From Bradyrhizobium lablabi (GTDB lineage Bacteria; Pseudomonadota; Alphaproteobacteria; Rhizobiales; Xanthobacteraceae): 64,000 nucleotides of DNA. The notes beneath the pieces are model-generated. The model was not told the origin of the DNA and made no database searches. It worked only from the letters and a program-made list of their open reading frames with translations. The number at the start of each line of letters is the position of its first letter. The stretch's first letter is position 1. Positions 9,939-64,000 of the stretch are shown here, in pieces. Location: NCBI RefSeq assembly GCF_900141755.1, contig NZ_LT670844.1:806001-870000 (forward strand). Direction: 5' to 3'. A program made the position numbers and the translations under genes.

Positions 9939-10016
9939 GATTCATCGGCAACGCGGCGGGCGCTCGACAGGTAGTCGCGGCGGACGCAGGTACCAGCAGC
10001 CGCCGCGACGTTGACC

Positions 10017-47227: not shown

Positions 47228-47353
47228 GGCGGCCTCCAACAAAACGTATGTTTTCCAATCCCGACTGCCGACCTACCGCTTGATGTGCCGGCGTCTCGCT
47301 CCTCGATACGCCGGCACAGAAATCTCGCTTCTAGCGGTAGGCTTAGATACGGC

Positions 47354-48445
47354 TCATTTGGGAACGCTACCTTCGATGCCATCGACATACCAATTGAGCG
47401 AGCTGAAGGTGGCGTCCGGCATCACGCTACCTGCGGCAACCATTTCCTTACCCGTATTGTCCTTGATCGGTCCGGCGAAGGGGTTCAGCGTGCCGGCGAT
47501 CAGCTTGGCCTTGGCGTCTTCGAACACCTTGACGGCGGCCGGCGGAATATCCGGATTGAGCGGCGCCATCACCACCAGTCCCTCCTTGAGACCCCAGCGC
47601 GTGTGCCGGTTTCCGGTCCATGTGCCGTCCAGCACCTTCTTGGTTTCGGCGATATAATAGCCGCTCCAGTCTTCCGTCGTGCCCGAGAGCTGCGCCTTCT
47701 TGCCGAAGCTCGACATATCCGCATCGATCGAGAATGCGTAGGTGCCCTTTTCCTGCGCCGCCTGAATCGACGCCGGCGAGTCCGTGTTCTGCGCGACGTT
47801 ATCGGCGCCTTGCGCGATCAGTGTATCAGCGGCCTGACGCTCCTTGCCCGGGTCATACCAGGTGTTCACCCAGATCGCCTTGGTCTTGACCTTGGGATTT
47901 ACCGCCTGCGCGCCAAGCGTCATGGAATCGATATTGCGAACGACGCTGGGGATCGGGAAAGACCCGATGAAGCCAAGCGTGTTGGACTTTGTCATCTGGC
48001 CGGCGATGGTGCCGATCAGATAAAAGCCTTCCTCAAAGCGCGGTTCGTAGACGGAGATGTTGGCCGCGGTCTTGAAGCCGTTGACGTGCTCGAATTTCAC
48101 GTCCGGGAACAGCTTGGAGACCTTCTGCAGCGGCTCCATGTAGCCAAACGAGGTTGCGAAGATCAGCTTGTTGCCATCGGCGGCAAGCTGACGAAAGACG
48201 CGTTCGGAATCGGCGGTCTCGGGGACGTTTTCCACGAACGTGGTCTTGATCGCGGAGCCGAGCGCCGCTTCCAGCTTCAGGCGGGCTACATCGTGCTGTT
48301 GCGTCCAGCCGCCGTCGCCGCGCGGGCCCAAATATACAAAGGCGACCTTTAGCGGCTCGGCCGCAAAGGCCGCCGTCGTTGCTGTCACCATCAAGCCGGT
48401 TGCAATGCATAGAGGTAAAGATTTCAAAGTTTTGCTTAGCTGCAT
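47354..48445 (-). CDS. BMP/Med family substrate-binding protein (nucleoside/purine type)
   Basis: 363 aa. Signal peptide MQLSKTLKSLPLCIATGLMV to near AAFAAE. The mature part LKVAFVYLGPRGDGGWTQQHDVARLKLE and ATSFGYMEPLQKVSKLFPDVKFEHVNG is the BMP (PnrA-like) pattern. These proteins bind nucleosides or purine-like ligands. Works with permeases and a double ATPase encoded upstream at 48500-52093 in the same direction. Confidence 0.92.
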   Translation of the reverse strand: MQLSKTLKSLPLCIATGLMVTATTAAFAAEPLKVAFVYLGPRGDGGWTQQHDVARLKLEAALGSAIKTTFVENVPETADSERVFRQLAADGNKLIFATSFGYMEPLQKVSKLFPDVKFEHVNGFKTAANISVYEPRFEEGFYLIGTIAGQMTKSNTLGFIGSFPIPSVVRNIDSMTLGAQAVNPKVKTKAIWVNTWYDPGKERQAADTLIAQGADNVAQNTDSPASIQAAQEKGTYAFSIDADMSSFGKKAQLSGTTEDWSGYYIAETKKVLDGTWTGNRHTRWGLKEGLVVMAPLNPDIPPAAVKVFEDAKAKLIAGTLNPFAGPIKDNTGKEMVAAGSVMPDATFSSLNWYVDGIEGSVPK

Positions 48446-48499: not shown

Positions 48500-49420
48500 T
48501 CACGCGGCCGAATGGAAGCTGTGGCCGAGAGAGGCCGGTTGGTTGAGCAGGATCGTCTTCGGATCACGACAGATGATGACCAGGACGATGATCGTCGCCG
48601 CGTAAGGCAGCATCGACAGAAACTCGGTCGGGATCGGCAGACCGAAGCCTTGCGCGAACAGCTGAAACTGCGTGACGCCGCCAAACAGATAGGCGCCGAC
48701 GACGACACGCGTCGGCTTCCACGTACCGAACACGACAAGCGCGAGCGCAATCCAGCCTTTGCCGGCTGACATGCCTTCGACCCACATCGGGGTCTGCACC
48801 AGCGAGAGATATGCGCCGGCAATGCCGGCGGTCGCGCCACCAAACATCACGGCGAGGTAACGGGTGGTCAGGACCGGCTTTCCGATGGCGTGGGCGACTC
48901 CAGGCGATTCGCCGATCGCCCGCAGCGTCAGGCCTGCGCGGGACTTTGTCAGGAACCATTGCACGCCGATGAATAGCGCGACCGAAAGATAGACCATGAT
49001 GTCGTAGTGAAATAGCAGCTCGCCCAGAACGGGGATGGCGGTCAGCCCGGGAATGGTGATCGGCGCCAGCCGGTTGACCGGCAGACCGGCGAGATTGTAG
49101 CCGACGAAGGCCGACAGGCCGATCCCGAACAAGGTCAGCGCGAGACCGGTCGCTACCTGATTGGTTTGCAGGTTGAGCGTGAGAAAGCCAAACACCAAAG
49201 ACAGCGCGATGCCGGCGAACGCCGCCGCGACAAACCCGAGGATGTCGCTTCCAGTTGCAAGCGTCGCGGCAAAGCCGGACACCGCGCCGATCAACATCAT
49301 CCCCTCAATACCGAGGTTGAGGACGCCGGACCGTTCGACAATGGTTTCGCCAAGCGCCGCGTAGATCAACGGCGTGGCGGCTACCACGGTAGAGGCAATC
49401 ATCGGAACGAGCGGATTCAT
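48500..49420 (-). CDS. ABC permease, nucleoside type (YufQ/NupQ-like)
   Basis: 306 aa, about eight helices. The core AALGETIVERSGVLNLGIEGMMLIGA is the diagnostic start of the BPD_transp_2 branch for BMP systems, and the segment LTLRAIGESPGVAHAIG is the coupling loop. Overlaps the second permease gene by 4 bp. Confidence 0.93.
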   Translation of the reverse strand: MNPLVPMIASTVVAATPLIYAALGETIVERSGVLNLGIEGMMLIGAVSGFAATLATGSDILGFVAAAFAGIALSLVFGFLTLNLQTNQVATGLALTLFGIGLSAFVGYNLAGLPVNRLAPITIPGLTAIPVLGELLFHYDIMVYLSVALFIGVQWFLTKSRAGLTLRAIGESPGVAHAIGKPVLTTRYLAVMFGGATAGIAGAYLSLVQTPMWVEGMSAGKGWIALALVVFGTWKPTRVVVGAYLFGGVTQFQLFAQGFGLPIPTEFLSMLPYAATIIVLVIICRDPKTILLNQPASLGHSFHSAA

Positions 49421-50523
49421 GCGGCGTTCTCCAACGTGGTCACAGCCTTCGGTGCAGGGTTTTCGGCAACGCTCACTCGCTTCAGCCGGAACGCGATGAA
49501 CAGATCGGCGGCCAAGAGATAGAACAGTAACAGCCCCTGGAACATTCCGGTGATCGCCGACGGCAAACCCATCCCCATCTGCGCCGCCTCACCGCCGAGA
49601 TAAAGCAGTGACATCAACAATGCGCCGAACACGACACCGATCGGATGCAATCGCCCGATCCAGGCGACGATGATCGCCGCAAAACCATAGCCCGGCGAAA
49701 TCTGCTGCTGTAGCCGGCCGATTGGCCCTGCGACTTCGCAGATCCCGGCAAGGCCGGCGGTCGCTCCGCACAGCATCAGCGCGATCCAGATGTTTCGCTT
49801 TTCCGAAAAGCCCGCATAGGCCGCAGCGGCGGGTGCAAGCCCCGCCACCTGCATCCGGAAACCCGCGAAGGTCTTCTGGGAGAATACCCAGGCGACCACC
49901 GCCAGCACGAGGGCGTAGACGATGCCCCAGGTCACGCGGGTTCCGTTGATCAGAACCGACATGGTTTCGGCGTCACCGAAACCCTGGGATTGCGGGTAGT
50001 TCTGTCCCTGCGGATCGCGCCAGGGGCCATGCACCAGCCAGGACAACACCAGCTGGGATATGTACACCAGCATCAGCGTCACAAGAATTTCGTTGGTGTT
50101 GAATCGGGTACGCAGGAAGGCCGGGATCGCGGCCCAGGCCATGCCGCCGAGCACGCCGGCGACCAGCATCAGCGGCATCGCGAGGCTGGAATCGCTGTCG
50201 CCGAACCACAGCGCAACGCCGCCGCCGGCGATCGCGCCCATCGTGAGCTGCCCTTCCGCGCCGATATTCCAGACATTGGCGCGAAAACCGAGCGCCAGGC
50301 CGAGTCCACAGAGCAACAGCGGCGTCGTCTTGAGCAGCAATTCGCCGATGCCATAGGCGCTCGACAATGGTTTGACAAAGAACAGATAGAACGCTTCCAT
50401 CGGATCCTTGCCCAGCGCGCTGAACAGCAAGAATCCGGTCACAAGCATGCCAAGCGCCGCCAGCACCGGCGAGGCAATGCGCATCGTCGAAGATGGCGTG
50501 GCGCGCCGCTCAAGCCTGAGCAT
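49417..50523 (-). CDS. ABC permease, nucleoside type (YufP/NupP-like)
   Basis: 368 aa. TTPLLLCGLGLALGFRANVWNIGAEGQLT is the matching motif of the partner permease class. ATG at 50523 has GGAG 7 nt upstream; the longer frame from 50556 overlaps the ATPase further. Forms a heterodimer with the 306-aa permease. Overlaps the ATPase gene by 14 bp. Confidence 0.92.
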   Translation of the reverse strand: MLRLERRATPSSTMRIASPVLAALGMLVTGFLLFSALGKDPMEAFYLFFVKPLSSAYGIGELLLKTTPLLLCGLGLALGFRANVWNIGAEGQLTMGAIAGGGVALWFGDSDSSLAMPLMLVAGVLGGMAWAAIPAFLRTRFNTNEILVTLMLVYISQLVLSWLVHGPWRDPQGQNYPQSQGFGDAETMSVLINGTRVTWGIVYALVLAVVAWVFSQKTFAGFRMQVAGLAPAAAAYAGFSEKRNIWIALMLCGATAGLAGICEVAGPIGRLQQQISPGYGFAAIIVAWIGRLHPIGVVFGALLMSLLYLGGEAAQMGMGLPSAITGMFQGLLLFYLLAADLFIAFRLKRVSVAENPAPKAVTTLENAA

Positions 50524-52093
50524 CAGCCGTCTCCAAATCCGAATTTGCGGGTACAACGCGGTCGGGCGCCTTGTCGCCGAATTTGCCGCTCATCCATGTC
50601 CCGATTTGCTCGATCGACGTCTCGGCGGGTCGAACCGACGGCGACAGCCGCCCCTCCGCCAGCACCGCAATCCGATCGCTGATCGTGAAGAGCTCATCGA
50701 GCTCTTCTGAAATCACCAACAGCGCCACGCCCTGGTCGCGCAGATCGATCAGGGCCTGCCGGATCAGCTGCGCCGCGCCGACATCCACACCCCAGGTCGG
50801 CTGGGCCACGATCATCATTTTGGGCTGCAGCATGGTCTCTCGACCAACGATGTATTTCTGCAGATTGCCGCCCGAGAGGCTCGAGGCAACCGATTGCTCG
50901 TCGCCGCATTTGACCTTGAAGCGCTCGATCACGGACTTGGAAAAGGTCCGCATCACGGCAGGATGGATCAGGCCCTTCAGCACCATGCCCTTTCGCGCTC
51001 CGGTCAAAAGGGCGTTGGAAGCAAGGCTCATCGGCGGCACCGCCCCTCGCCCCAGCCGCTCTTCCGGAACGAAGGTCAGCCCGATCGCACGGCGCTTCGC
51101 CGGGTTGAGATCGCCGACCGGCTGCCCCAACAGCTTGATCATCGAGCCCGGACTGCTCAAACGCTCGCCCGAGAGCGCCGTCATCAATTCCTTCTGGCCG
51201 TTTCCGGAAACGCCGGCGATCCCCAAAATCTCGCCGCTGCGCACCGTCAGGCTGATGTCCTTCAGCGAAGTGCCGAACGGATCAGGCGAGGCCAGCTTGA
51301 GGTGCTCGACCTCGAGCCGTACTTCCTGGGGTTCGCGCGGGGTCAGATGGCACTCTGCCAGCTCGCCGCCGATCATCATGCGAGCCAGGCTCTCATTGGT
51401 TTCGTTCTTGGGGATCGCTGTGCCGCTGACCCTCCCGCCGCGCAGCACCGTTGCGGTGTCGCAGAGCGCGCGGATTTCGTCGAGCTTGTGGCTGATGTAG
51501 AGGATGCTGCACCCTTCGGACGCCAGGCGCCGAAGGGTCTTGAACAATACCAGGACAGCTTGCGGCGTCAGCACGGATGTCGGCTCGTCCATGATCAGAA
51601 GCTTGGGCTCCTGCAGCAGACAACGCACGATCTCGACGCGCTGCCGCTCGCCCACGGACATGCTGTGAACGAGACGGTAGGGATCGATCGGAAGCCCGTA
51701 TTTTTCCGACACCTCGGTAATCTGCGCCGCCAGTTGCGCGGTCGGGACGTGCTCGTCCAACGCCAACGCGATGTTTTCCCAGACGGTCAGCGTCTCGAAC
51801 AACGAAAAATGCTGGAACACCATGCCGATGCCCATGCGCCGCGCCTGCGCGGGGGTGACGATGGTCTCATACTGATCGTTCCACAGGATAGTGCCGGCAT
51901 CCGGTTTGGTGACGCCGTAGATGATCTTCATCAGGGTGCTTTTGCCGGCACCATTCTCGCCCAGCACTGCGTGAATTTCCCCCGGGCGGACGCTCAAGGA
52001 GACGCCATCGTTGGCCACCACGCTTGGGTAACGCTTGGTAATGCCGGTAAGCACCAACCGCGGCTTCTGATGTTCAAATCCCAATTGATCCAT
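50510..52093 (-). CDS. ABC ATPase with two nucleotide-binding domains, nucleoside type (YufO/NupO-like)
   Basis: 527 aa. First domain: Walker A GENGAGKST, signature SVGERQRVEIVRCL, Walker B LLIMDEPTSVLTPQ. Second domain has the degenerate P-loop GVSGNGQKE, signature LSGGNLQKYIVG and a degenerate Walker B, as usual for this family and for sugar importers. ATG at 52093 fits the family N terminus; a frame extending to 52279 lacks ribosome sites. Leads the leftward importer operon (ATPase, permease, permease, binding protein, 2-oxoglutarate oxygenase, hydrolase). Confidence 0.92.
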   Translation of the reverse strand: MDQLGFEHQKPRLVLTGITKRYPSVVANDGVSLSVRPGEIHAVLGENGAGKSTLMKIIYGVTKPDAGTILWNDQYETIVTPAQARRMGIGMVFQHFSLFETLTVWENIALALDEHVPTAQLAAQITEVSEKYGLPIDPYRLVHSMSVGERQRVEIVRCLLQEPKLLIMDEPTSVLTPQAVLVLFKTLRRLASEGCSILYISHKLDEIRALCDTATVLRGGRVSGTAIPKNETNESLARMMIGGELAECHLTPREPQEVRLEVEHLKLASPDPFGTSLKDISLTVRSGEILGIAGVSGNGQKELMTALSGERLSSPGSMIKLLGQPVGDLNPAKRRAIGLTFVPEERLGRGAVPPMSLASNALLTGARKGMVLKGLIHPAVMRTFSKSVIERFKVKCGDEQSVASSLSGGNLQKYIVGRETMLQPKMMIVAQPTWGVDVGAAQLIRQALIDLRDQGVALLVISEELDELFTISDRIAVLAEGRLSPSVRPAETSIEQIGTWMSGKFGDKAPDRVVPANSDLETADAQA

Positions 52094-52507
52094 GGTTTCA
52101 ATCAGTCCCGGCCGCCAGGCAGCGGCCTCCATCGCTTGCAAAGCACAAGCAATCTGCGCGCCAAGTCGGCAAAGCCGACCTTCGGAGCAGCAAAAATCAG
52201 CATTTTCGTTCGATTTTTCCGCGCCTCTGCGGTCATGACGGATGGAGCAAAGACCGACTTTACCGTCCGCGGCTGGCACGCCGGCCGACGGTCAATCGGT
52301 CGGCAGTCGCCGGCCTCGCGGTCCATCGGTGCAACTTGAGGCAGCGCGACCGACGGATGCACACCGGATATCAAAAACCGAACGAGCGCTTCCAAGCATC
52401 ACGGGTCCGCCGCAGGAGAGCGCCCGGCGCAATTTGTTGCGGAAGCCGAAGATGCCAACTAGCATCCTGTCACGCAGATGAAATTCCTCTGGGCTTACGG
52501 AGGCCGA
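52094..52507. other. Divergent regulatory region between nucleoside importer and block H
   Basis: 414 bp without a supported gene. Two dyads share the half-site GTCGGC: GTCGGC-AAA-GCCGAC at 52165-52179 and GCCGAC-N9-GTCGGC at 52284-52304. They may be operators for a regulator that controls both directions; no regulator gene lies adjacent. Confidence 0.4.
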
Positions 52508-53368
52508 ATGCCTTTTATCCAAGCGCCTGACCGCACCAAGCTTTATTATGAAGAGGTCGGGACTGGAAGCGCTATGGTTTTCGTGCACGAGTATGCCGGC
52601 GATTACCGCACCTGGGAACCGCAGCTCAGACATTTCGCTCGTTCGCATCGATGCATCACTTTTAGTCAGCGCGGCTATCCGCCATCGGAGGTGCCCGAAG
52701 ATCCTGCGCGCTACAGCCAGGAGATTGCGCGCGACGATGTAATCGCACTCCTTGATGCGTTGGGGATCGATAAAGCGCATATCGTCGGCCACTCGATGGG
52801 CGGCTACACCGCGCTGCATGTCGGCATCCGTGTGCCGCAGCGCTGTATTTCGGTGGTGGCCGCCGGTTGCGGCTTCGGTTCATTGCCGGATGCCCAGCGC
52901 GTCGCGGCCATGAAGCAGCAGGTGGCCGAGACCGGCAAGATGTTTGCCGAAGAAGGCATCAAATCCGCGGCGGCGAAATACGCCGACGCGCCGATGCGTC
53001 AGGCGCACAAGAACAAGGATCCCCGCGGCTGGTCGGAGTTCGCGCACATGCTCAGCGAGCATTCGGCGCTGGGTCATGCGAACACCATGTTCGGCGTGCA
53101 GCTCAAGCGTCCGACGCTTTACGAAATGGAAGCCGATCTCAAGCGCTTCACCCCGCCGCTGCTCGTGATCGTCGGAGATGAAGATGAACCGTGTCTTGAA
53201 GGTAGTTTCTTTCTGAAGCGCGCGGCGCCGACCGCCGCTCTCCTGGTCATTCCTCGCACCGGTCATAACGTCACCAGCGAAGAGCCGGCCGCGTTCAATG
53301 CAGCGCTGGCCGACTTGTTTTTTGCAGCCGAGTCGGGCCGCTGGGTCGCACATAAGAAGGCGACCTGA
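52508..53368 (+). CDS. Alpha/beta hydrolase
   Basis: 286 aa. Nucleophile Ser96 in GHSMGGYTALH, acid in VIVGDEDEPC, catalytic His in PRTGHNVTSEEP. The oxyanion HEYAGDYRTWEPQL follows VFVHE rather than the usual HG, a minor variation. ATG at 52508 follows GGAGG; the earlier ATG at 52478 is less supported. Nine bp from the 8-oxoguanine-deaminase-like gene, so the two are co-transcribed. Substrate unknown; carbamate, ester or C-C hydrolysis are all possible. Confidence 0.87.
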   Translation: MPFIQAPDRTKLYYEEVGTGSAMVFVHEYAGDYRTWEPQLRHFARSHRCITFSQRGYPPSEVPEDPARYSQEIARDDVIALLDALGIDKAHIVGHSMGGYTALHVGIRVPQRCISVVAAGCGFGSLPDAQRVAAMKQQVAETGKMFAEEGIKSAAAKYADAPMRQAHKNKDPRGWSEFAHMLSEHSALGHANTMFGVQLKRPTLYEMEADLKRFTPPLLVIVGDEDEPCLEGSFFLKRAAPTAALLVIPRTGHNVTSEEPAAFNAALADLFFAAESGRWVAHKKAT

Positions 53369-53377
53369 GCGGGATCG

Positions 53378-54718
53378 ATGAAAACCTGGATTCGCGATCC
53401 GATCGCAATGCTGGCCGATGGAGGCCCGCGCGGGCTTGTGGTGGAAGGGGGCAGGATCATCGAACTTGTCGGCCAGCAAGGGCCGACGACACCTTGTGAC
53501 GAGGTGTTCGACGCCAGGCGGCACGTCATCATCCCAGGCCTCGTCAACGCACATCACCATTTCTTCCAGACGCTCACGCGCGCCCATCCGCAAGCCATCA
53601 ACAAGCCGCTGTTTCCGTGGCTCAAGCAGCTTTATCCGATCTGGGGTGCGCATCTCGATCGCGATCGCTTTCGTCTCGCCGTGCGCGTCGCGCTCACCGA
53701 ACTCCTGATCTCGGGCTGCACCACGGCGTCGGACCACCTGTTTGTCTTTCCCGACGATATGGCCGACGCCGTCGACATCGAAGCGGAAGAAGCCACAAAA
53801 TTGGGAATGCGCATGACGCTGACACGCGGCGCCATCAATCTCGGCTTTTCCGATGGCGGTCTCGCCGACGAACGATTGATGCAGGACTATGACGCGATCA
53901 TCCGGGATTGCGAACGGGTGCTGAAAAAATATCACAATTCCAGCGAGGGCTCTTTCCTGCGCGTCGCGCTGGCCCCGTGCGCCCCTTTCAACGTCACCAA
54001 GCAGCTGATGATCGATACGGCCGATCTCGCCGCAAAGCACGATTGCCTGCTTCACACGCACCTGGGAGAAACCCGCGATGAGGACGACTACTGTCTGCAT
54101 CACTATGGTTGTCGACCGCTCGACTATCTGGAAGAGGTAGGTTGGCTGAACGAACGTGTTTGGCTCGCTCATGGCATTCACTTCAACGATGCGGAGGTAA
54201 AGCGGCTCGGCAAGCATGGCATGGGGATTTGCCACTGCCCGACATCGAACATGATGCTGTCCTCAGGCGTCTGCCGAACCAAGGATCTGGAAGCCGCGGG
54301 CGTGACGGTGGGACTAGGCGTCGATGGCTCCGCCTCAAACGACAGCTCGAATTTGATGGAGTCGGTCCGCCACGCTTTCCTACTGGGACGCCTCGCCTAC
54401 GACGCGTCGGAGGTCACCCATCTGGACGCGTTCCGCTGGGCGACCGAAGGGTCCGCCAAGTGTCTCGGGCGAAGAGATATCGGCAAGATCGAAGTCGGAC
54501 GCCAAGCGGACCTTGCGTGCTTCACCTTGGACGAATTGCGGTTTTCCGGCGCCGGCGATCCGATTGCAGCCCTCGTGCTCTGCGGGGCGCATCGGGCGGA
54601 CCGGGTGATGATCGGCGGCGAATGGCGCGTTACCGAGGGCGTGCCGGTCGGAATGGACCTTGCGCGGCTGCGTCACGAGCACGGCGTCGCGGCGGCGGCA
54701 TTCATGACGAGCGCCTAA
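53378..54718 (+). CDS. 8-oxoguanine deaminase-like amidohydrolase
   Basis: 446 aa. The start WIRDPIAMLA, His59/His61 in VNAHHHFFQTLTRAHPQAIN, LFPWLKQLYPIWGAHLD, LLHTHLGET, WLAHGIHFND and Asp in LGVDGSASND are the set seen in experimentally defined bacterial 8-oxoguanine deaminases (Pa0142 type), which turn 8-oxoguanine into uric acid. Divergent purine/nucleoside importer genes next door agree with a purine-like substrate. Isocytosine or pterin deaminase remain alternatives within the subgroup. Confidence 0.85.
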   Translation: MKTWIRDPIAMLADGGPRGLVVEGGRIIELVGQQGPTTPCDEVFDARRHVIIPGLVNAHHHFFQTLTRAHPQAINKPLFPWLKQLYPIWGAHLDRDRFRLAVRVALTELLISGCTTASDHLFVFPDDMADAVDIEAEEATKLGMRMTLTRGAINLGFSDGGLADERLMQDYDAIIRDCERVLKKYHNSSEGSFLRVALAPCAPFNVTKQLMIDTADLAAKHDCLLHTHLGETRDEDDYCLHHYGCRPLDYLEEVGWLNERVWLAHGIHFNDAEVKRLGKHGMGICHCPTSNMMLSSGVCRTKDLEAAGVTVGLGVDGSASNDSSNLMESVRHAFLLGRLAYDASEVTHLDAFRWATEGSAKCLGRRDIGKIEVGRQADLACFTLDELRFSGAGDPIAALVLCGAHRADRVMIGGEWRVTEGVPVGMDLARLRHEHGVAAAAFMTSA

Positions 54719-54962: not shown

Positions 54963-56447
54963 ATGGCCAGAGACGGAAACAGCTATCTTGCAAGCCTGCG
55001 CGACGGCCGTTCGATCTATATCGACGGCCGCAAAGTCACCGATGTCACCACGGACCCCTGCTTTCGCGGCGTAGTCGCCACCGCCGCCGGCCTCTATGAT
55101 TTCCAGGCCGCGCCGGAAAATCTCGAACAAATGACGTTCCCGTCGCCGACCAGCGGCGAGCGCGTCAATCTGGCGTGGCTGCTGCCAAAGACCTATGGCG
55201 ATCTCGTCAGGCGCCGTCAGGCCATCGAACGATGGTCGGAGCTTTCGTGCGGCATGATCGGCAGGTCACCGGATCATGTTGCCTCGACGCTGGCAGGCTT
55301 CCGGATGGGGCTCGCGGCGTTTCGCGATTACGACCGGGCCCGCGCCGCCGCTTTGGAATCCTATTTTCAGTACGCCCGGGACAACGACCTTTTCCTGTCC
55401 TACGTCATCATCAATCCACAATCGGACAAGGCGAGATCAGCAGGCAACCAACCCGATCCGCATCTGGTGGCTTCCGTCGTCGACGAGGACAGCGAGGGTA
55501 TCACCATTCGCGGTGCAAAAATGCTGGCCACCAGCGGCGTCATGGCGAACGAGCTTTTGGTTTCGGGCTTTCAGGCATTGCAGGCCGGCGACGAAGCCTA
55601 CGCTTTCACCGCCGTGGTCCCACTCAGCGCCAAGGGTCTGACCCTGATGTCGCGCCGCAGCTACGAGCAAAACGCGACATCCGTATTCGATTATCCGCTT
55701 TCGTCCAGATTCGACGAGAACGACGCCGTCGTCCACTTCAACGACGTCAAGATCCCCTGGGATCGCGTCTTCGTCTGCAAGGACCTGAAGATGGCGCAGG
55801 CCCAGTGGCACGACACCAGAGCCCACGTCTTACAGAACTATCAGTGCATCGTCCGGTTGATGGTAAAGTTGAAGTTCATGCTCGGACTGGCGCGCAAGAT
55901 CGCCGAAACCAACAACATCATCAACTATCCCCAGGTGCGCGAAACCCTGGGCTTAATGGCCGCGAAGGTCTCAAACATCGAAGCGCTTGTGATCGCGATG
56001 GAGCTCAAGGGCGAGAATTTTGGCGAATTCTACGTTCCCGATCGAGCGATGCTTTGCGCGGCCCAGGTCATCGCGCAGACCACTTATCCCGAGATCGCGG
56101 AAGCCATTCGCTCGCTTTCCGGCGGCGGCATGATCATGGTTCCTTCGTCCTACGCCGATTTTGCGACGGCGGAAACCAACGCCATCATTCATAAGACGCA
56201 GCGGTCGACGGTTGCGACATCGGAAGAGCGCGTCAAGTTGATGAAGCTTGCATGGGACGCCGTCGGCTCCGAATTCGGCTCGCGTCATCTGCAATATGAA
56301 ATGTTTTATTCAGGCGCTCCCTTCGTGACGCGCGGAAATTCCTTCCGATTCTTCGATTGGGACGGCGCCAAGGGAGCCGTCGAGCAATTCATGAGCTCCT
56401 ATGGTTTGCCCGAAACCAATCTGAAGCTCCCAAATGCGGCGGAGTGA
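54963..56447 (+). CDS. HpaB/PvcC-type FADH2-dependent monooxygenase
   Basis: 494 aa, close to the ~480-520 of 4-hydroxyphenylacetate 3-hydroxylase. Visible are the N-terminal YLASLRDGRSIYIDGRKV, the flavin-site region SYVIINPQSDKARS, ITIRGAKMLATSGVMANELL and the C-terminal half with IWDRVF-like PWDRVFVCKD. It hydroxylates a phenol-like or enol ring using reduced flavin from a separate reductase; none is adjacent, but flavodoxin-fold and nitroreductase genes exist elsewhere in the window. ATG at 54963 follows GGAG. First gene of a tightly packed operon running to at least 63546. Confidence 0.9.
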   Translation: MARDGNSYLASLRDGRSIYIDGRKVTDVTTDPCFRGVVATAAGLYDFQAAPENLEQMTFPSPTSGERVNLAWLLPKTYGDLVRRRQAIERWSELSCGMIGRSPDHVASTLAGFRMGLAAFRDYDRARAAALESYFQYARDNDLFLSYVIINPQSDKARSAGNQPDPHLVASVVDEDSEGITIRGAKMLATSGVMANELLVSGFQALQAGDEAYAFTAVVPLSAKGLTLMSRRSYEQNATSVFDYPLSSRFDENDAVVHFNDVKIPWDRVFVCKDLKMAQAQWHDTRAHVLQNYQCIVRLMVKLKFMLGLARKIAETNNIINYPQVRETLGLMAAKVSNIEALVIAMELKGENFGEFYVPDRAMLCAAQVIAQTTYPEIAEAIRSLSGGGMIMVPSSYADFATAETNAIIHKTQRSTVATSEERVKLMKLAWDAVGSEFGSRHLQYEMFYSGAPFVTRGNSFRFFDWDGAKGAVEQFMSSYGLPETNLKLPNAAE

Positions 56448-56455
56448 TTTCGATC

Positions 56456-57649
56456 ATGTACAGTCCCGATGAAATTAAGCGTCTCGCCTTTGTCGAGCAC
56501 GGCCGGCGATCGCTAAGGCTGGTGCAGGACGGACCGCTCGCAGACCTGTCATTTGCGGCAAAAGACCTGATTGATATCGCCGGGTACAAGTCGGCCTGGG
56601 GCAACCCGGATCGGCTGCGCGAAGCCGATCCGGCCACAGCCACCGCGCCTGCCGCGCTAGTGCCGCTGATGGCAGGTGCCTATTTGGTCGGAAAGACCCA
56701 GACCGATGAGGTCGCTTGCGGGATGTTTGGAATGAATCCGCATTTCGACACGCCGATCAATCCGAAGGCTCCGAGCCGCGTTCCCGGCGGATCTTCGAGC
56801 GGCTCTGCCTCAGCGGTAGCGGCAAATTTTTGCGATTTTGCGCTCGGCACCGATACCGGCGGATCGATCCGCGTTCCCGCGAGCTTTTGCGGCCTTTATG
56901 GTTTGCGCACGACGTTCGGCCGCTTGTCGGTTGCAGGGATCATGGCGATGGCGCCAAGCTTCGACACCGTCGGCTGGCTCGCGCGCGACGCTCGTACGCT
57001 CAAGCGCGTAGGCGAACTCTACTTTGGCCCGATTGAAAATTATAAGCCGGCACGGCTGTTACTGGCACGTGACGCGTTCGATATCCCCCCGCGCCACATC
57101 GCGGAGACCCTGTTACCGGCGGCGAAATCGCTGGGACACATGACCGAGGTGACGTTGTTTGCGGAAGGCATCGAATATTGGCTGGAGACCTTCAGGCCAC
57201 TGCAGCTCAGTGATCTCTGGTCGACGCTCGGCGCCTGGGGCAAGAAGCCCGGGCGAACCCTCAGCCCTGCGGTAGCGGAACGTATCGATCTGGCCTCACG
57301 CGTCGATCCGGCAAAATTCGCTGCCGCGGTTGTCCAGCGCGAATCCCTGACCGACCGGTTGGTGGCGCTGCTTGGCAACGACGGCGTGTTGGTCCTGCCG
57401 ACGGCGCACGATCTTCCGCCGTTCCGCGACGCGCCGGTGTCGGCGCAGGTCGAATTCCGGGAAAAGACGCTCGCCCTCACCTGCATTGCCAGCCTTTGTA
57501 GATTGCCGCAGATCAACATCCCGGCCGTGACCGTCGATGATTGCCCCGTCGGCCTGTCCTTCATCGCCGGCCCGCGCGGAGACCAACTGCTGCTGGACCT
57601 TGCCGAGAAGATCGGAAACGCCTTGCCTGCGGCTGCGGTCGAAAAATGA
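56456..57649 (+). CDS. Amidase signature family enzyme
   Basis: 397 aa, somewhat short for the family. Catalytic Lys36 (FAAKDLIDI), cis-Ser at 113-115 in GGSSSGSASAVAANF and nucleophile Ser137 in DTGGSIRVPA are all in place. Hydrolyses amide or carbamoyl-amide bonds; an allophanate-hydrolase-like role was considered because of the ureide theme, but the C-terminal allophanate hydrolase domain is missing. ATG at 56456, 8 bp after the preceding stop; overlaps the next gene by 4 bp (ATGA). Confidence 0.9.
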   Translation: MYSPDEIKRLAFVEHGRRSLRLVQDGPLADLSFAAKDLIDIAGYKSAWGNPDRLREADPATATAPAALVPLMAGAYLVGKTQTDEVACGMFGMNPHFDTPINPKAPSRVPGGSSSGSASAVAANFCDFALGTDTGGSIRVPASFCGLYGLRTTFGRLSVAGIMAMAPSFDTVGWLARDARTLKRVGELYFGPIENYKPARLLLARDAFDIPPRHIAETLLPAAKSLGHMTEVTLFAEGIEYWLETFRPLQLSDLWSTLGAWGKKPGRTLSPAVAERIDLASRVDPAKFAAAVVQRESLTDRLVALLGNDGVLVLPTAHDLPPFRDAPVSAQVEFREKTLALTCIASLCRLPQINIPAVTVDDCPVGLSFIAGPRGDQLLLDLAEKIGNALPAAAVEK

Positions 57650-58560
57650 AGACCAATAACGAGCGGGATTTCATCGGCTACGGCAGCAGCCCGCCGGATT
57701 CACGCTGGCCGAACGGCGCTCGCCTCGCGCTCGTTGTCGTTCTCAATGTCGAAGAGGGTGCGGAACCCTCGATCCCCGACGGCGACGATGCCACGGAGAC
57801 TGCGCTGACCGACGGCATTCCGGAGGAAGTGCCCGCAGGCACTCGCGATTTCGTCGCTGAGTCACTTTTTGAATATGGTTCGCGCGTGGGCTTTTGGCGG
57901 ATCGTCAACTTGATGAGGGAGCGCAACCTGCCGGTCACGGTCAACGCGTGTGCCCAGGCGTTTTCACGCAATCCTCAGATCGCGGATGCGATCAAGGAGT
58001 TCGGTCTCGACCTTTGTTGTCATGGCGACCGTTTCGTCAGGCATTTCTTGCTGACCGAAGAGCAGGAACGAGAAATCATCGCGCGCTCGGTTGCCGGCAT
58101 CGAACGGGCGATCGGCCGTCGTCCGCTGGGCTGGCAAAGCCGCTACTCGCCTAGTCAAAACACCCGCGCGCTCCTCGTCGAGCACGGTAGCTTTCTCTAC
58201 GATTCGGATAGCTATGCTGATGACTGGCCCTATTGGGTAAAAGTCGGCGAGAAGGCGCACCTCATTATTCCGCACAGCTTTACCAACAATGACAACCGGC
58301 TGGCGACCGCCAAACTCGGCACCGCAAACGATTTCTTCGATCATCTCTCCTCGGCGTTGCGCGTACTCTATGCGGAGGGCGTGACTCACCCGCGGATGAT
58401 GACGGTCAGTCTTCACAGCCGAATTTCGGGCCAGCCCGCCCGGTTCGAGGCCGTCATGAGGTTTCTCGATCTCGCGGCGAAGCATGACGGAATCTGGTTC
58501 GCCAGCCGCGCCGACATCGCCCGGCATTGGATGCATATCCACCCTGCGGAGCGGTTTTGA
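57646..58560 (+). CDS. PuuE-like allantoinase / polysaccharide-deacetylase-fold hydrolase
   Basis: 304 aa. The NodB-homology fold is seen in GARLALVVVLNVEEGAEPS, the histidine-aspartate pair in LCCHGDRFVRHF, GWQSRYSPSQNT and MTVSLHSRISGQPARF. Close in layout to PuuE, the metal-independent allantoinase of urate catabolism, including DSDSYADDWPYW. Where PuuE has HGWRW this protein has HGDRF, so substrate specificity may differ. ATG overlaps the amidase stop; its own stop overlaps the next ATG (TGATG). Confidence 0.87.
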   Translation: MKTNNERDFIGYGSSPPDSRWPNGARLALVVVLNVEEGAEPSIPDGDDATETALTDGIPEEVPAGTRDFVAESLFEYGSRVGFWRIVNLMRERNLPVTVNACAQAFSRNPQIADAIKEFGLDLCCHGDRFVRHFLLTEEQEREIIARSVAGIERAIGRRPLGWQSRYSPSQNTRALLVEHGSFLYDSDSYADDWPYWVKVGEKAHLIIPHSFTNNDNRLATAKLGTANDFFDHLSSALRVLYAEGVTHPRMMTVSLHSRISGQPARFEAVMRFLDLAAKHDGIWFASRADIARHWMHIHPAERF

Positions 58561-60065
58561 TGAAGGCCCGCGAAAGCCTCCTCTTCACCGGAGGGCTTGT
58601 CCTCGATTCAGAATTAGGCACGGCCGATCGCAAGGACCTTTTGATCGAGGATGGAAAGATCGCCGCGGTCGGCGCGCCCGGCACGTTGGCGGCCACAACC
58701 ACCGCAAAGCGCGACGCAAGTGATCGCCTGATCATTCCCGGTCTCGTCAATGCCCACACCCATGGCCACGCCAATCTCATGAAGGGCGTGGCCGAAGCGT
58801 GGACGCTCGAGGCCTCCCTGACCAACGGACCCTGGCTCGCCGGGACGCGTGATCCCGAAATGATTTACCTGTCCACGCTGCTCGGCGCCATCGATATGCT
58901 GTCGAAGGGCTGCACGGCCTGTTTTGATCTTTTCTACGAATTTCCTCGGCCGACCAGAGAGGGTTTTGCGGCCGCTGCAAAAGCCTATGCCGACGCCGGC
59001 ATGCGCGCGGTGCTTGCGCCGATGGTCGCCGATCAGAGTCTGTTTCAGTCAATTCCGGGATTGGTCGACGCATTGCCGCAGGATCTGCGCGATACGGTCG
59101 GCAATTTCGCCCTTGCAAGCGGAGACCGGATTATTGCGGCCGTCGAAGCGATCGCAGCGGCGCGAATGGAAATGCCTGACACCGTCACGCTCGCCATCGC
59201 CCCCACGATCCCGCATCACTGCTCCGAACGCTTTTTGCGGGACTGCCTGGATATCGCGGACCGTCATGAGCTTCCAATCCACATGCACATCGCGGAGTCC
59301 CGGCTGCAGGCTGTCGTCGCGCGAAAGATCTATCAACGTTCCGCGGTCCGTTATCTTGCCGACCTTGGAATGCTCCGGCCGAACTTCACCGCCGCACACT
59401 GCGTCTGGCTCGACAAGGACGATCTCGATCTGCTTGCCGAACATGGCTGCTCCGTCGCTCACATTCCGGCCAGCAATTTCAGACTTGGATCCGGCGTTGC
59501 CCATGTCAGGCCGATGCTGGAGCGCGGCATCAATGTCGGTTTGGCAACCGACGGCGCCAATTCCTCGGATTCACTGAGCATGTTGCAGGCGATGCGGCTC
59601 GCATCCTTTGGCGCACGGATGTTTACCGGCCCGCGCGAGGACTGGCTGCATGCTCACGAAGTCGCCAGGCTCGCGACGCTCGGCGGCGCAAAACTTCTGG
59701 GGCTCAAATCATGCGGCCGAATTGAGCGGGGGGCTTGTGCCGACCTCGCCCTGTTCGATCTTAACCACGTCGATTTCATCCCCGGCAATGATTCGATCAA
59801 CCAACTGGTGAACTGCGCCGATTCTGCAGCGGTGACTGACGTGATGGTAGGCGGCACGTTCACGGTCCTCGATCGGAAGATCGTTTCAGTCGACACAATC
59901 GACCTGCGCAGCCGCGTCGCCGATTGCGTCGCCAGACTTACCGCAGCCACGAGCCAGGCGCGGACCCTGGCCGGTCGGCTCGAACCGCACGTCGTTGCCT
60001 TTGCCCAATCGATGTCGCACGAGCCGCTCTCGATCGAGCGACGGATCAGGCCGGAGCCGAGGTGA
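58560..60065 (+). CDS. Amidohydrolase of the nucleobase deaminase branch
   Basis: 501 aa. Metal site His66-X-His68 (VNAHTHGHANLMKG), His in IHMHIAES, AAHCVWLD, and Asp in LATDGANSSDS; similar to methylthioadenosine/S-adenosylhomocysteine and guanine deaminases and to TrzN. The C terminus carries an extra ~50-residue tail. Starts within the TGATG that ends the PuuE-like gene. Third deaminase-type paralogue in the window. Confidence 0.88.
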   Translation: MKARESLLFTGGLVLDSELGTADRKDLLIEDGKIAAVGAPGTLAATTTAKRDASDRLIIPGLVNAHTHGHANLMKGVAEAWTLEASLTNGPWLAGTRDPEMIYLSTLLGAIDMLSKGCTACFDLFYEFPRPTREGFAAAAKAYADAGMRAVLAPMVADQSLFQSIPGLVDALPQDLRDTVGNFALASGDRIIAAVEAIAAARMEMPDTVTLAIAPTIPHHCSERFLRDCLDIADRHELPIHMHIAESRLQAVVARKIYQRSAVRYLADLGMLRPNFTAAHCVWLDKDDLDLLAEHGCSVAHIPASNFRLGSGVAHVRPMLERGINVGLATDGANSSDSLSMLQAMRLASFGARMFTGPREDWLHAHEVARLATLGGAKLLGLKSCGRIERGACADLALFDLNHVDFIPGNDSINQLVNCADSAAVTDVMVGGTFTVLDRKIVSVDTIDLRSRVADCVARLTAATSQARTLAGRLEPHVVAFAQSMSHEPLSIERRIRPEPR

Positions 60066-60069
60066 TCTG

Positions 60070-61533
60070 ATGATTGCGACGAAAGCGACAAATCCCGGCC
60101 TCGCCGAGCTTGAGCAGCGCGTTCGTTTCGAGCTCGACTGTCTCGGATACCCGACACGGCAATGGATGGTCCCTCGCCGCCGCAACGGCACGCTTGTGCA
60201 TGATGTCGTCATTGTCGGCGGCGGCCAGAGCGGAATATCGATTGCCTTCCGGCTGATGCGCGAGCGAATAACCAATCTGCGCGTGCTCGACCGGAATCCG
60301 GAAGGTTTTGAGGGACCATGGCTGACCTTCGCCCGCATGCGTCAGCTGCGGACGCCCAAGATCGTGACAGGGCCCGATCTCGGCATCCCCGGCCTCTCGG
60401 CGCGCGCCTGGTGGCAGGCGCAGTTCGGCGAACGCTCCTGGGAAGGATTGGACAAGATCCCGCGCGAGTTGTGGCAGGCCTATCTTTTGTGGGTCCGCAA
60501 GACCGTCGGCATTGAAGTCAGCAACGAAACCGAGGTCACCGACATCGAGCCGCTGGATGACCTGCTCGTCGTCCACGCAAGACGAGGCAGCGAAACGGAG
60601 AGGCTCCTTGCACGCAAAGTCGTGCTTGCGACAGGAATGGAAGGGTCCGGGCGTTGGGTGGTGCCAGCGGCAATCGCCGAGGCGTTGCCCCGAGACCGCT
60701 ATGCCCACACCTCGGATCAAATCAATTTTGCTTCGCTTGCGGGAAAGTCGGTCGCGGTGATAGGCGCCGGCGCTTCTGCGTTCGACAACGCCGCGATGGC
60801 ACTCGAGAATGGCGCGGCGTCGGTCGAGCTATTTGTCCGCCGCAAGCAGCTTCCAACCGTCAATCCGAACCGATGGATGGAGTTTGCCGGCTTCCTTCGC
60901 CATTTCGGCGATCTGGACGATGCGCGAAAATGGCGGTTCATGAAACTCATTTTCGACATGAACCAGCCTCCTCCGCAAGAAACCTTTGTCAGATGCACTC
61001 GCTTCAAGAACTTCTCCATACGTCTCGGCTGTCCAATTGAACGCATCCGTTTCGACGGGGACAAGATTGCGCTCACGGCTTCGCAGGGGACGAAGGCCTT
61101 CGATTTCCTGATCGCCGGCACCGGCTTCGCCGTCGATCTCGCGGCGCGCCCTGAATTGGCGCGTTTCCATGACAAGATCGCTTGCTGGTCCGATCGCTAT
61201 CATCCGCCCGACGGCGAGGAGCATCCGCTGCTTGGTGCCTACCCTTATCTCTCTCCCAATTTTCAATTCACTGAAAAGACTGAGGGAGCAGCGCCATATC
61301 TCGCCAATATTTTCAGCTACACATTCGCGGCGATGCCGAGCCTTGCCTGCTCTGCAGGCATTTCCGCGCTCAAATTCGGACTGGACCGGATCGCGACCGG
61401 AATGAGCCGCCGGCTGTTCATCGAGGACGCCGACGCTCATCTGCAATCGCTTCGCGACTATGATGAGCAGGAGCTTGACATCACCGCCGGTAGCGAGCCA
61501 CAGAAATTTTCGCGGAATAATCAAACATGGTGA
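60070..61533 (+). CDS. FAD/NAD(P)-dependent monooxygenase (flavin-containing monooxygenase-like)
   Basis: 487 aa. Residues 46-56 carry the FAD motif VVIVGGGQSG, and a second dinucleotide motif VAVIGAGASAFDNAAMALE lies about 230-250. The FMO-type linker and LIAGTGFAVDLAARPEL, near the C-terminal third, support class B flavoprotein monooxygenase (N- or S-oxygenation, Baeyer-Villiger) over a plain reductase. An N-terminal ~45-residue helical extension precedes the FAD domain. Overlaps the next gene by 7 bp. Confidence 0.87.
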   Translation: MIATKATNPGLAELEQRVRFELDCLGYPTRQWMVPRRRNGTLVHDVVIVGGGQSGISIAFRLMRERITNLRVLDRNPEGFEGPWLTFARMRQLRTPKIVTGPDLGIPGLSARAWWQAQFGERSWEGLDKIPRELWQAYLLWVRKTVGIEVSNETEVTDIEPLDDLLVVHARRGSETERLLARKVVLATGMEGSGRWVVPAAIAEALPRDRYAHTSDQINFASLAGKSVAVIGAGASAFDNAAMALENGAASVELFVRRKQLPTVNPNRWMEFAGFLRHFGDLDDARKWRFMKLIFDMNQPPPQETFVRCTRFKNFSIRLGCPIERIRFDGDKIALTASQGTKAFDFLIAGTGFAVDLAARPELARFHDKIACWSDRYHPPDGEEHPLLGAYPYLSPNFQFTEKTEGAAPYLANIFSYTFAAMPSLACSAGISALKFGLDRIATGMSRRLFIEDADAHLQSLRDYDEQELDITAGSEPQKFSRNNQTW

Positions 61534-62600
61534 GCGTTGAAGATCGACCCAGGCGGCTGCTCGAATCGGCGCTCAAGATAGAGAAGCCGTTTCGGCTCGA
61601 TGAGACCTTGTGCCTTTATTCCCCCCAGGACAATGTCGATTCCTTAAAACACCCGCGGATCGCCGAGTGGCTGGAGTTCATTCAAAAAGAATACGAACCC
61701 GAGCTTCCCGACGCAGAACGTCGCGTGCTGTTGTTCATGCCTTGCACCAAAACAAAACCCTATCCTTTTTCCTCCGAGCATATGGCGATCAATCAGCGGC
61801 TGTTGGACGAAGGATACCGGCCGACCCGCCGGTCCTATCTCCCCCAAGGGCTCCTGGCGCGGCTTGAACCGTGTTTTTCGCCTGATGTTTTGAACTTGTC
61901 GCCGCTCCTCGACAACAACGGGACGGTCGTGCACCGCATGGTCATTTCGGAACCCATGGCGGTCGTTCCCTACGAGCATATCGCCGAATTTCGCGGCAAG
62001 GCTTCTCCCGCGGTCGCCTATGATGATCCCGGACTGTTCGAGAACAGGGGCAATGCGGTATCGCCATGGCGACGGGACTCGACTGCGACGCGCGTGTCGG
62101 CGACGCAATGGAAATGGGGCGATGAGGAGCGCCGGCAATACGTCGTCATGCATAATGAGATGGCGCGAATATTGGCTAACGTCGTCGCGCGGATCGGACG
62201 AAGCTATGCCGACGTGATTTCCTGGGTCGCCCCAGGGCTCACCCATCGAAGCTTTGTGCTGGCGCGCGGCGAGCGCGCCCTACACCACGTGCCGGCGTCG
62301 CGAAAAGTCGGCGCCAAGCGGATCGAGCTCGTGGGCGCCAACGACCACCTCCCGGCAGAACTTCGGATCGCCTGCCTTCCTCTCCCCGACGACTGCAAGA
62401 ACGCGATCGCGCGTTTGTCCCGTCGCCTCAAGGTCGACCTTCCGCGCGCAACGGCGATCTACGCACGCGGCGGCGTCAACGCGACCCCGCTCGCGCTGCC
62501 GGAGCTTCTGGATGTTCTGGTGAAGCGGCTCGTCTACAACACTCTCAGCGTCGAAGGAAAGCGAAGTCATGGCCGCGTTGTCACTGAAAATAGGCGTTAG
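61527..62600 (+). CDS. Protein with the archaeosine-synthase (ArcS, DUF5591-type) catalytic motif
   Basis: 357 aa, not a standard bacterial enzyme. Residues 72-85 read PCTKTKPYPFSSEH, an exact match to PC-X3-KPY-X2-S-X2-H, the motif reported to define the core of archaeal archaeosine synthase, which adds a nitrogen donor to the nitrile of preQ0 in tRNA. VISEPMAVVPYEHI further on resembles the SPLGxVPREL segment of that domain. The TGT-like and PUA domains of archaeal ArcS are not seen. It lies inside a catabolic operon with amidases, deaminases and monooxygenases, overlapping both neighbours, so a small-molecule substrate is more likely than tRNA (inference). Confidence 0.7.
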   Translation: MVSVEDRPRRLLESALKIEKPFRLDETLCLYSPQDNVDSLKHPRIAEWLEFIQKEYEPELPDAERRVLLFMPCTKTKPYPFSSEHMAINQRLLDEGYRPTRRSYLPQGLLARLEPCFSPDVLNLSPLLDNNGTVVHRMVISEPMAVVPYEHIAEFRGKASPAVAYDDPGLFENRGNAVSPWRRDSTATRVSATQWKWGDEERRQYVVMHNEMARILANVVARIGRSYADVISWVAPGLTHRSFVLARGERALHHVPASRKVGAKRIELVGANDHLPAELRIACLPLPDDCKNAIARLSRRLKVDLPRATAIYARGGVNATPLALPELLDVLVKRLVYNTLSVEGKRSHGRVVTENRR

Positions 62601-63546
62601 CGACTCCGATCGGACCAGGCCGATCGCCAGTGGCGAGGTTGCGATCGAAGGCGTCGCCGCCGAGGTGACGCTGATGGGTGTACAGGCGCTGTTCAACCAG
62701 CAGCTGACCGAGCACACTTTTGACTGTTGCGAATTCCCTCTCTCCTCCTACCTGCGATCGCTGGAACGCCCGGAGCGACCATATGTGGCAGTACCGGTAT
62801 TCCCCTCGCGCCACTTCCGGTTCTCGAGCGTCTTCGTCAATACCGCAAAAGGAATACAAAAGCCTGCCGACCTTGCCGGCAAGCGCATCGGAGTTCCCGT
62901 GTTCGACATGGCCGCCGCGGTCTGGCTGCGCGGCATCTTTCAAGATCATTTTGGACTATCACGCACCTCGCCGATTTATGTTGCCGGGGGGCTGGAGGCC
63001 GCGCGCACCGGCGACGAGCATCCGCAATTCTATCCCGGTCACTTCAAGCACGAGCAGAGAAACGACAAGAGCCTCGCCGTGCTGCTGGCCGAGGGCGAAA
63101 TCGATGCGTTGTATACGGCGCGCGCACCCAGCACCTGGCCGTCGGCTTCGGTGACCCGTTTATTCGCGGACCCGATGCAGGTGGAGCTCGATTATTTTTC
63201 GAAGACCGGCATCTTTCCGCCCATGCACGTCGTTGCGGTCAAGCGGAAGCTTGCCGAGGCCAATCCCGGTCTGACGTTGGCCATCTTCAATGCTTTCGCG
63301 CAGGCCCAGAAAATTGCCCGAGAAAGACTGTTCGACTCGGCCGCCTTGTGCACGATGCTGCCTTGGCAGCTCGAAAGCCTTCTTCTTACCGAGCAGCGGC
63401 TTGGCAAGGATTACTGGCCGGTGGGCTTGGCGAAAAACCGCGCAACGCTTCAAGTCATTATTCGCTACATGACCGAGGATGGTCTGATCGCGAAGGTAGC
63501 TTCACCCGAGGAGTTGTTTTCTGGCGCGGACATCTTGGAGACGTAG
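62569..63546 (+). CDS. 4,5-dihydroxyphthalate decarboxylase-like protein with periplasmic-binding-protein fold, no signal peptide
   Basis: 325 aa. The start ALSLKIGVSDSDRTRPIASG matches the Pht5/4,5-dihydroxyphthalate decarboxylase family, which reuses the NMT1-type binding-protein fold as a cytoplasmic enzyme. KGIQKPADLAGKRIGVPVFD and the EIDALYTARAPSTW segment fit. No signal peptide is present, arguing for an enzyme rather than a transport receptor; no ABC genes are adjacent. ATG at 62569 follows GAAGGAAAG and overlaps the ArcS-motif gene by 32 bp. Confidence 0.82.
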   Translation: MAALSLKIGVSDSDRTRPIASGEVAIEGVAAEVTLMGVQALFNQQLTEHTFDCCEFPLSSYLRSLERPERPYVAVPVFPSRHFRFSSVFVNTAKGIQKPADLAGKRIGVPVFDMAAAVWLRGIFQDHFGLSRTSPIYVAGGLEAARTGDEHPQFYPGHFKHEQRNDKSLAVLLAEGEIDALYTARAPSTWPSASVTRLFADPMQVELDYFSKTGIFPPMHVVAVKRKLAEANPGLTLAIFNAFAQAQKIARERLFDSAALCTMLPWQLESLLLTEQRLGKDYWPVGLAKNRATLQVIIRYMTEDGLIAKVASPEELFSGADILET

Positions 63547-63762: not shown

Positions 63763-64000
63763 GTGAGCACCATTCCCGTGATTGACATCGCCCCGCTAGT
63801 GAAGGGCTCGCCGGAGCAGGCCCACGCCATCGCAATGGACTTGGGCCGTGCATGCCGCGAGGTCGGTTTCTTCTATATTACGGGACATGGGGTCCCAAAG
63901 GCATTGATGGATGCCGTTTTTGATAGCTCGGCCGCGTTCTTTACCGGTCCGGCTACGATCCGGGAGGCTGCAACTTTCACCGGCCCCGGCGGCAACCGTG
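63763..64000 (+). CDS. 2-oxoglutarate/Fe(II) dioxygenase N-terminal part, cut by window edge
   Basis: 79 residues of a DIOX_N domain: IPVIDIAPLVKGSPEQ, CREVGFFYITGHGVPKALM and a following helix. The iron-binding core lies beyond the window. The start is GTG at 63763 with GAGGAG upstream. Paralogous in its N-terminal part to the oxygenase at 46247-47227. It lies 216 bp past the block H operon and is probably its continuation or a separate unit. Confidence 0.82.
   Translation, partial: MSTIPVIDIAPLVKGSPEQAHAIAMDLGRACREVGFFYITGHGVPKALMDAVFDSSAAFFTGPATIREAATFTGPGGNR

Follow-up and report, generated by a model that had tools for sequence, protein, structure and literature searches.

A single-domain DUF5591 protein, the core of archaeosine synthase, in a catabolic-type operon of Bradyrhizobium lablabi

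What would the core of archaeosine synthase (ArcS), an enzyme of tRNA modification, do in a bacterial operon of degradative look? The question is raised by a 64,000-nucleotide stretch of Bradyrhizobium lablabi DNA (NZ_LT670844.1, positions 806,001 to 870,000; hereafter the window, whose own numbering is used), which lies in a 7.9-Mb single-contig genome. A 357-amino-acid protein encoded there is a single-domain bacterial member of the DUF5591 family, that is, the core of ArcS; its family and fold are secure, and the catabolic setting of its gene is well supported. We tentatively propose that this free-standing enzyme may take part in degrading a purine-like compound, possibly a 7-deazaguanine, by acting on the group at C7, a reading to which we give less than an even chance.

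Family, fold and signature motif

The first-pass annotation had described an open reading frame (ORF) with the motif PC-X3-KPY-X2-S-X2-H, and both were found in the letters: the ORF is present and open, and PCTKTKPYPFSSEH at residues 72-85 fits the motif exactly. This motif is reportedly the ArcS signature of the 2010 ArcS paper. About 9e-5 chance occurrences are expected in 2.6 million residues, given the composition of 12 window ORFs and assuming independent positions. The exact motif was kept in 170 of 170 family proteins, which were the query, the best 120 of 612 hits and 49 more from the best 120 of 639 hits, the relatives in these best-120 lists all having at least 64% identity to their query; among such close homologues it is invariant. 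AF0587, the ArcS core of Archaeoglobus fulgidus, also carries it exactly (PCTARKPYLTSRTH). In the predicted model, the motif forms a single loop that links strand 65-72 to helix 83-94. Cys73 belongs to the PCTKTKPY stretch of this loop, where the first core strand ends; it is invariant in the family proteins and in AF0587, and the six phage-type proteins (that of Vibrio phage nt-1 and five relatives) all have it too. Therefore, we regarded it as a candidate nucleophile.

The Pfam model DUF5591 (PF17884) matched the protein with 27.6 bits against a gathering cut-off of 26, and 29 of 29 members of alignment A1 matched it at E up to 0.1, the best at 6.3e-9. The hhalign comparison with AF0587 plus the six phage-type proteins paired 125 columns. 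The predicted fold of the 357-residue protein is that of the solved member 2q07 (AF0587), and the different fold that would have refuted the first-pass reading was thus not seen. The fold comparison also covered the uracil-DNA glycosylase superfamily, to which a match was not clear-cut. No TGT or PUA domain was found by Pfam at E up to 1, and DUF5591 was the sole domain; the protein belongs to the ArcS-core structural family and has neither. Some relatives are already named "DUF5591 domain-containing protein" in UniRef. The PDB sequence search with the query gave two unconvincing chains (E 0.21 and 0.65), and that with alignment A1 gave no match. Locus L002 was omitted from alignments A1, A2 and A4; A4 was built from the query plus 12 of the 13 named loci and 75 of the 120 listed hits, 88 sequences in all.

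The window protein shares its core fold and exact motif with ArcS (NF040592; AF0587/2q07), whereas ArcS has TGT-like and PUA domains and a role in tRNA modification, and the window protein has neither domain and lies in a catabolic-type operon. ArcS proper was rejected as an identity on three grounds: the missing TGT and PUA domains, a score below the cut-off and the absence of a RaSEA-model match in the genome.

A stand-alone relative has also been reported from a phage. VPFG_00169 of Vibrio phage nt-1, a stand-alone DUF5591 protein, was named ArcS in the accessible text of PMC6884629. The phage-type proteins are likewise single-domain, with 215-257 residues and no room for TGT and PUA, and the nt-1 model suggests helices and core strands in the same order as in the window protein. 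In contrast to the exact motif of the window protein, theirs is altered to LCTTTRPYENSRKW, and these proteins lack the two insertions that the window protein has. The nt-1 gene lies near 6-pyruvoyl tetrahydropterin synthase-like, GTP cyclohydrolase I and ExsB genes, which are the usual names of deazaguanine biosynthesis genes, whereas the window gene lies among catabolic-type genes. A tblastn search with a piece of AF0587 gave no plasmid match and 8 phage records, all from Vibrio or Sulfolobus viruses; in the Sulfolobus viruses JQ287645.1, OP999027.1 and AJ783769.1, the ArcS-core-like stretch had about 40% identity to AF0587 over about 72 residues. With the window protein itself, tblastn at E up to 1 gave no relative in phage records, no relative was confirmed in IMG/VR, and BFVD gave no structural match at E 1e-3. 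A viral origin was rejected on these results.

Operon, importer and distribution

The neighbours of the DUF5591 gene had been described as amidases, deaminases and monooxygenases; the profile matches agreed (Table 1), and the gene does lie inside an operon of degradative look. At its 5' end it shares 7 nucleotides with the end of the FAD monooxygenase gene, and at its 3' end 32 nucleotides with the beginning of the next gene. The product of that next gene, by sequence comparison, is a homologue of 4,5-dihydroxyphthalate decarboxylase, and the product of 53378-54718 is a predicted 8-oxoguanine deaminase-type enzyme that scored above the model cut-off. Triazine hydrolases occur among the solved relatives of both aminohydrolases.

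The operon or part of it was found in 12 of the 13 named loci, with L007 being a short contig that holds the operon in part. The nearest loci by the DUF5591 protein are from Bradyrhizobium, with 85% and 78% identity. A homologue of the FAD monooxygenase occurs in 12 of the 13 loci and directly upstream of DUF5591 in 11; in L004, the homologue (45%) is placed elsewhere. The alpha/beta hydrolase is probably not a core member, because its homologue was found in only 1 of the 13 loci (L001). Homologues of the 2-oxoglutarate (2OG)-Fe(II) dioxygenase were found in L001 (86%), L003 (79%) and L006 (38%). Further genes occur, in varying combinations, at the loci outside Bradyrhizobium: those for an HpaC-type flavin reductase, an AMDase/EutA-type protein, AraC, a CobW GTPase, an ABC ATPase, a class III aminotransferase, an aldehyde dehydrogenase, an asparaginase and an HDAC-like amidohydrolase.

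Genes for DUF5591 of this type are rare and patchy and belong to the accessory genome: they were found in 1 of 398 genomes of the phylum sample, 4 of 100 relatives and 8 of 397 genomes of the order, the own genome being counted in each. Co-occurrence with the neighbours was confirmed. Matches to the decarboxylase at E 1e-60 or better were found in 25 of the 397 genomes of the order, and orthologues with at least 70% identity in exactly the same 8 genomes as DUF5591, the next best having 43%; 17 of the 25 genomes were below 44%. Six of the eight genomes, among which is the own genome, belong to one genus, and they therefore represent fewer than eight independent events. Some sampled genomes also appear to be the same as named loci (G710/L006, G542/L011, G444/L001). 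Eight low-identity decarboxylase loci (six with 42-43% and two with 38-39%) had only scattered matches of up to 40%, to CobW, alpha/beta hydrolase, aldehyde dehydrogenase, ABC ATPase and other binding or decarboxylase-like proteins, and they held neither an HpaB, amidase or aminohydrolase gene nor one for DUF5591. Among 72,556 plasmid records, one matched, a Rhizobium plasmid bearing the same operon.

Divergent to the operon lie the four genes of an ABC importer with an AtzT-type binding protein. Its ATPase gene is at the same place in the Bradyrhizobium loci L001-L003 (87-88% identity), where it is cut by the end of the fetched stretches. According to the accessible text of PMC6834077, AtzT has affinities of about 110 nM for guanine and 2.2 uM for 2-hydroxyatrazine, and seven of its residues contact guanine. 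The window protein keeps Ser97, Phe98, Trp194 and Asn218 and has Tyr45 changed to Trp, Glu165 to Ser and Asn220 to Asp, so that two of the seven contacts are clearly changed. These residues would fit a guanine-like ligand other than guanine. The whole resembles AtzT and s-triazine/purine uptake and deamination, with an AtzT-type binding protein and triazine-hydrolase relatives of both aminohydrolases, but the ligand contacts of the window protein are changed, and the window operon adds the DUF5591 enzyme and the decarboxylase homologue.

A possible role in purine-like heterocycle breakdown

We speculated that the DUF5591 protein works on a small molecule instead of tRNA and carries out one degradation step for a purine-like heterocycle. 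Cys73 would most likely attack the nitrile at C7 of a preQ0-type 7-deazaguanine, present as base, nucleoside or nucleotide, or the enzyme would handle an amidine derived from it. Water, ammonia or an amine would then resolve the covalent adduct and yield an amide or amidine; conversion of the amide by the amidase would leave a carboxylate, for removal by the decarboxylase of the overlapping gene. The 8-oxoguanine-deaminase-type enzyme may remove the 2-amino group, and the flavin monooxygenases and the allantoinase-like hydrolase may open the rings. Because the importer contacts, the deaminase and the allantoinase-like hydrolase occur together with a domain linked to 7-cyano-7-deazaguanine, a 7-deazaguanine is the most economical guess for the substrate. 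We treat nitrile chemistry on a 7-deazaguanine as a testable guess, somewhere between doubtful and possible. In its full form, the proposal would make this operon the first known to break down 7-deazaguanines (preQ0, queuine-type compounds or related pyrrolopyrimidines): the ArcS core would open the nitrile or amidine of a free base, nucleoside or nucleotide, and deamidation, decarboxylation, deamination and ring opening would follow to yield nitrogen. We consider this unlikely.

A conserved cysteine on the preQ0 nitrile offers a possible analogy. In QueF and QueF-L, Cys attacks the preQ0 nitrile, and the thioimide absorbs at 376 nm; these are T-fold enzymes, according to the accessible text of PMC5485725. 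The earlier statement that such a chemistry was not described for bacteria needs qualification. No report of DUF5591 in a catabolic operon was found in the open-access literature searched, but the phage nt-1 ArcS (PMC6884629) and bacterial QueF acting on the preQ0 nitrile (PMC5485725) are in print, as the accessible text of both shows. In the open-access papers searched, the term DUF5591 was absent, no breakdown pathway for 7-deazaguanine, queuine or preQ0 was found, and the gene-name combination of the operon had no matching report. The ArcS core in this gene setting hints at a degradation pathway not yet described. Production of 7-deazaguanines for the modification of tRNA and phage DNA is widespread, and these compounds must end up somewhere. 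Studies of the ArcS mechanism would also profit from a stand-alone bacterial core, which may need neither tRNA nor RaSEA, and even if another heterocycle is the substrate, a tRNA-modification core in catabolism would be a new role for the fold.

Several findings weigh against this reading. In the family assignment, the Pfam match spans only 43 of the 150 model positions; hhalign paired only 47 columns with the phage-type proteins alone and 23 with the archaeal sequence alone, and its global mode failed; in the whole-genome search, the DUF5591 domain had E 0.0018 and was missed at 1e-3; 2q07 surfaced only in a second-look alignment, and Foldseek alone gave no match at E 1e-3. The NCBIfam ArcS models gave 26.9 bits against a cut-off of 440 (NF040592) and 23.6 against 600, although such a low score is not unusual for a stand-alone relative, because the phage nt-1 protein, printed as ArcS, scores only 30.0 bits with the ArcS model. 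No riboswitch was found at the Rfam gathering score near the operon, either in the window or at 6 loci; a preQ0 route would not obviously call for the aminotransferase, aldehyde dehydrogenase, HDAC-like amidohydrolase and asparaginase encoded at other loci; and in L010, the exception among the named loci, the DUF5591 gene lies outside the operon and follows a cytidine-deaminase-type gene. No data of this analysis gave a direct sign of a nitrile, preQ0 or deazaguanine. In the accessible text of PMC11298593, Thermococcus kodakarensis ArcS transfers lysine to preQ0 in RNA, does not use the free preQ0 base, uses the nucleoside very slowly and the 5'-nucleotide well, and is inactive without RaSEA. 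If the free base is the substrate, the operon enzyme must therefore differ from it, and for this reason we held breakdown of a 7-deazaguanine less likely; we also kept a nucleoside or nucleotide as a possible substrate. The model TIGR01210, which we take to be that of RaSEA, had no match in the own genome at E 1e-3; among 14 controls, it matched in 6, including three archaea, and was above the cut-off in 3.

The ArcS-core fold may instead have been recruited to a different chemistry, with an s-triazine, a pterin, a modified purine or a similar small N-heterocycle as substrate, such as amide or amidine hydrolysis or sugar removal from a nucleoside, with the motif as a family signature free of nitrile chemistry. 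We hold this to be about as likely as the breakdown reading, below an even chance; against it, the ArcS motif residues are exact in all 170 proteins, a degree of conservation that the fold by itself should not require. It is improbable that the operon is biosynthetic or modifying and serves a 7-deazapurine-like natural product or signal. Enzymes acting on 7-deazaguanines are, to our knowledge, familiar chiefly from biosynthetic routes, and a QueC is encoded in the genome (best match 238.8 bits, with two further marginal ones); but the genes look like those for importers, deaminases, amidases and ring hydrolases, with an aminotransferase, an aldehyde dehydrogenase and an AraC-type regulator besides, and no QueC, QueD or QueE was found among the annotated genes of the operon. 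With this QueC and one TGT, the genome very probably has ordinary queuosine metabolism.

Very improbable, in our view, is that the DUF5591 protein modifies tRNA or DNA as ArcS or the phage ArcS does, although it shares its fold with both, and the preferred substrate of known ArcS is preQ0 that is part of RNA or bears a 5'-phosphate (accessible text of PMC11298593). The protein lacks TGT and PUA, no RaSEA-model match was found in the genome, and the gene is accessory and patchy, with the catabolic-type operon in 12 of 13 loci. That the motif match is a coincidence is almost certainly wrong: the Pfam alignment spans only positions 1-43 of 150, but chance was ruled out by the 125-column profile alignment, the 29 of 29 Pfam matches and the invariance in 170 of 170 proteins, and it is already contradicted because the fold matches.

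Features of the window and further observations

Table 1. Coordinates of the operon, the divergent importer and the motif (window positions).
Feature	Position	Strand	Remarks
PnrA/BMP-type substrate-binding protein	47354..48445	-	PF02608; closest solved relative AtzT, 6pi5 E 1.6e-132
ABC importer permease 1	48500..49420	-	NF047928-like, below cut-off; PF02653
ABC importer permease 2	49417..50556	-	NF047929-like, below cut-off
ABC importer ATPase, RbsA/BMP-system type, divergent to operon	50510..52279	-	NF047930-like, below cut-off
Alpha/beta hydrolase, first gene of run	52478..53368	+	PF00561
8-oxoguanine deaminase-type aminohydrolase (predicted)	53378..54718	+	NF006055 (PRK08203) 611 bits, cut-off 532; 7ww2 E 2.3e-107
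HpaB-type flavin-dependent aromatic hydroxylase	54963..56447	+	PF11794, PF03241; solved 4-hydroxyphenylacetate 3-monooxygenases as relatives
Amidase, amidase-signature family	56357..57649	+	PF01425; NF006169 421 bits, cut-off 391; true start probably downstream
Allantoinase-like (PuuE-type) polysaccharide-deacetylase-fold hydrolase	57541..58560	+	TIGR03212 324.7 bits, cut-off 424.6; PuuE allantoinase 3cl6 E 5.6e-80
Aminohydrolase, 8-oxoguanine deaminase / triazine hydrolase group	58527..60065	+	Amidohydro_1; below all NCBIfam cut-offs shown
FAD/NAD(P)H monooxygenase	59995..61533	+	Pyr_redox_3, Lys_Orn_oxgnase; true start probably downstream of TTG
Stand-alone DUF5591 (ArcS-core) protein, 357 amino acids	61527..62600	+	open ORF, ATG start
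Codons for residues 72-85, PCTKTKPYPFSSEH (PC-X3-KPY-X2-S-X2-H motif)	61740..61781	+	
4,5-dihydroxyphthalate decarboxylase homologue	62569..63546	+	9jp7 E 4.5e-61; NMT1 (transport-type) sub-threshold, 19.1 bits, cut-off 20.5
2OG-Fe(II) dioxygenase, gene start	63763..64000, continues past window to G000:C1:870716	+	PF14226, PF03171

Some operons contain asparaginase-family genes (L006:5053-6042, L004:6385-7401). Methanocaldococcus jannaschii ArcS was reported to use ammonium, asparagine or glutamine as nitrogen donor, so a link to asparaginase is conceivable. At the end of the Parvibaculum operon in L004, a weak ureidoglycolate-lyase-like gene (L004:18874-19395; 30 bits, cut-off 230) follows the FAD monooxygenase homologue. 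In L010, the DUF5591 gene is paired with the cytidine-deaminase-type gene (PF00383, 39.5 bits) at 9199-9792 and 9989-11035, and a hydroxypyruvate-isomerase-like gene adjoins them.

2OG-Fe(II) dioxygenase genes recur around these systems: one follows the operon (G000:C1:869763-870716), another lies inside the Kaistia operon L006, and a second one in the window (46247-47242, minus strand) adjoins the AtzT-like importer. A nucleoside 2-deoxyribosyltransferase-family gene (PF05014) lies shortly downstream of the operon (L015:2787-3446; G000:C1:870787-871446). A creatininase-family protein (PF02633, 238.5 bits) is encoded at 43118-43936 on the minus strand and possibly points to more N-heterocycle metabolism near the operon. 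The only Rfam hit in the window was a guanidine-I riboswitch at 25903-26009 on the minus strand (78.6 bits, cut-off 63); it precedes ORFs on the same strand with matches to nitroreductase, SBP_bac_3 and an ABC permease.

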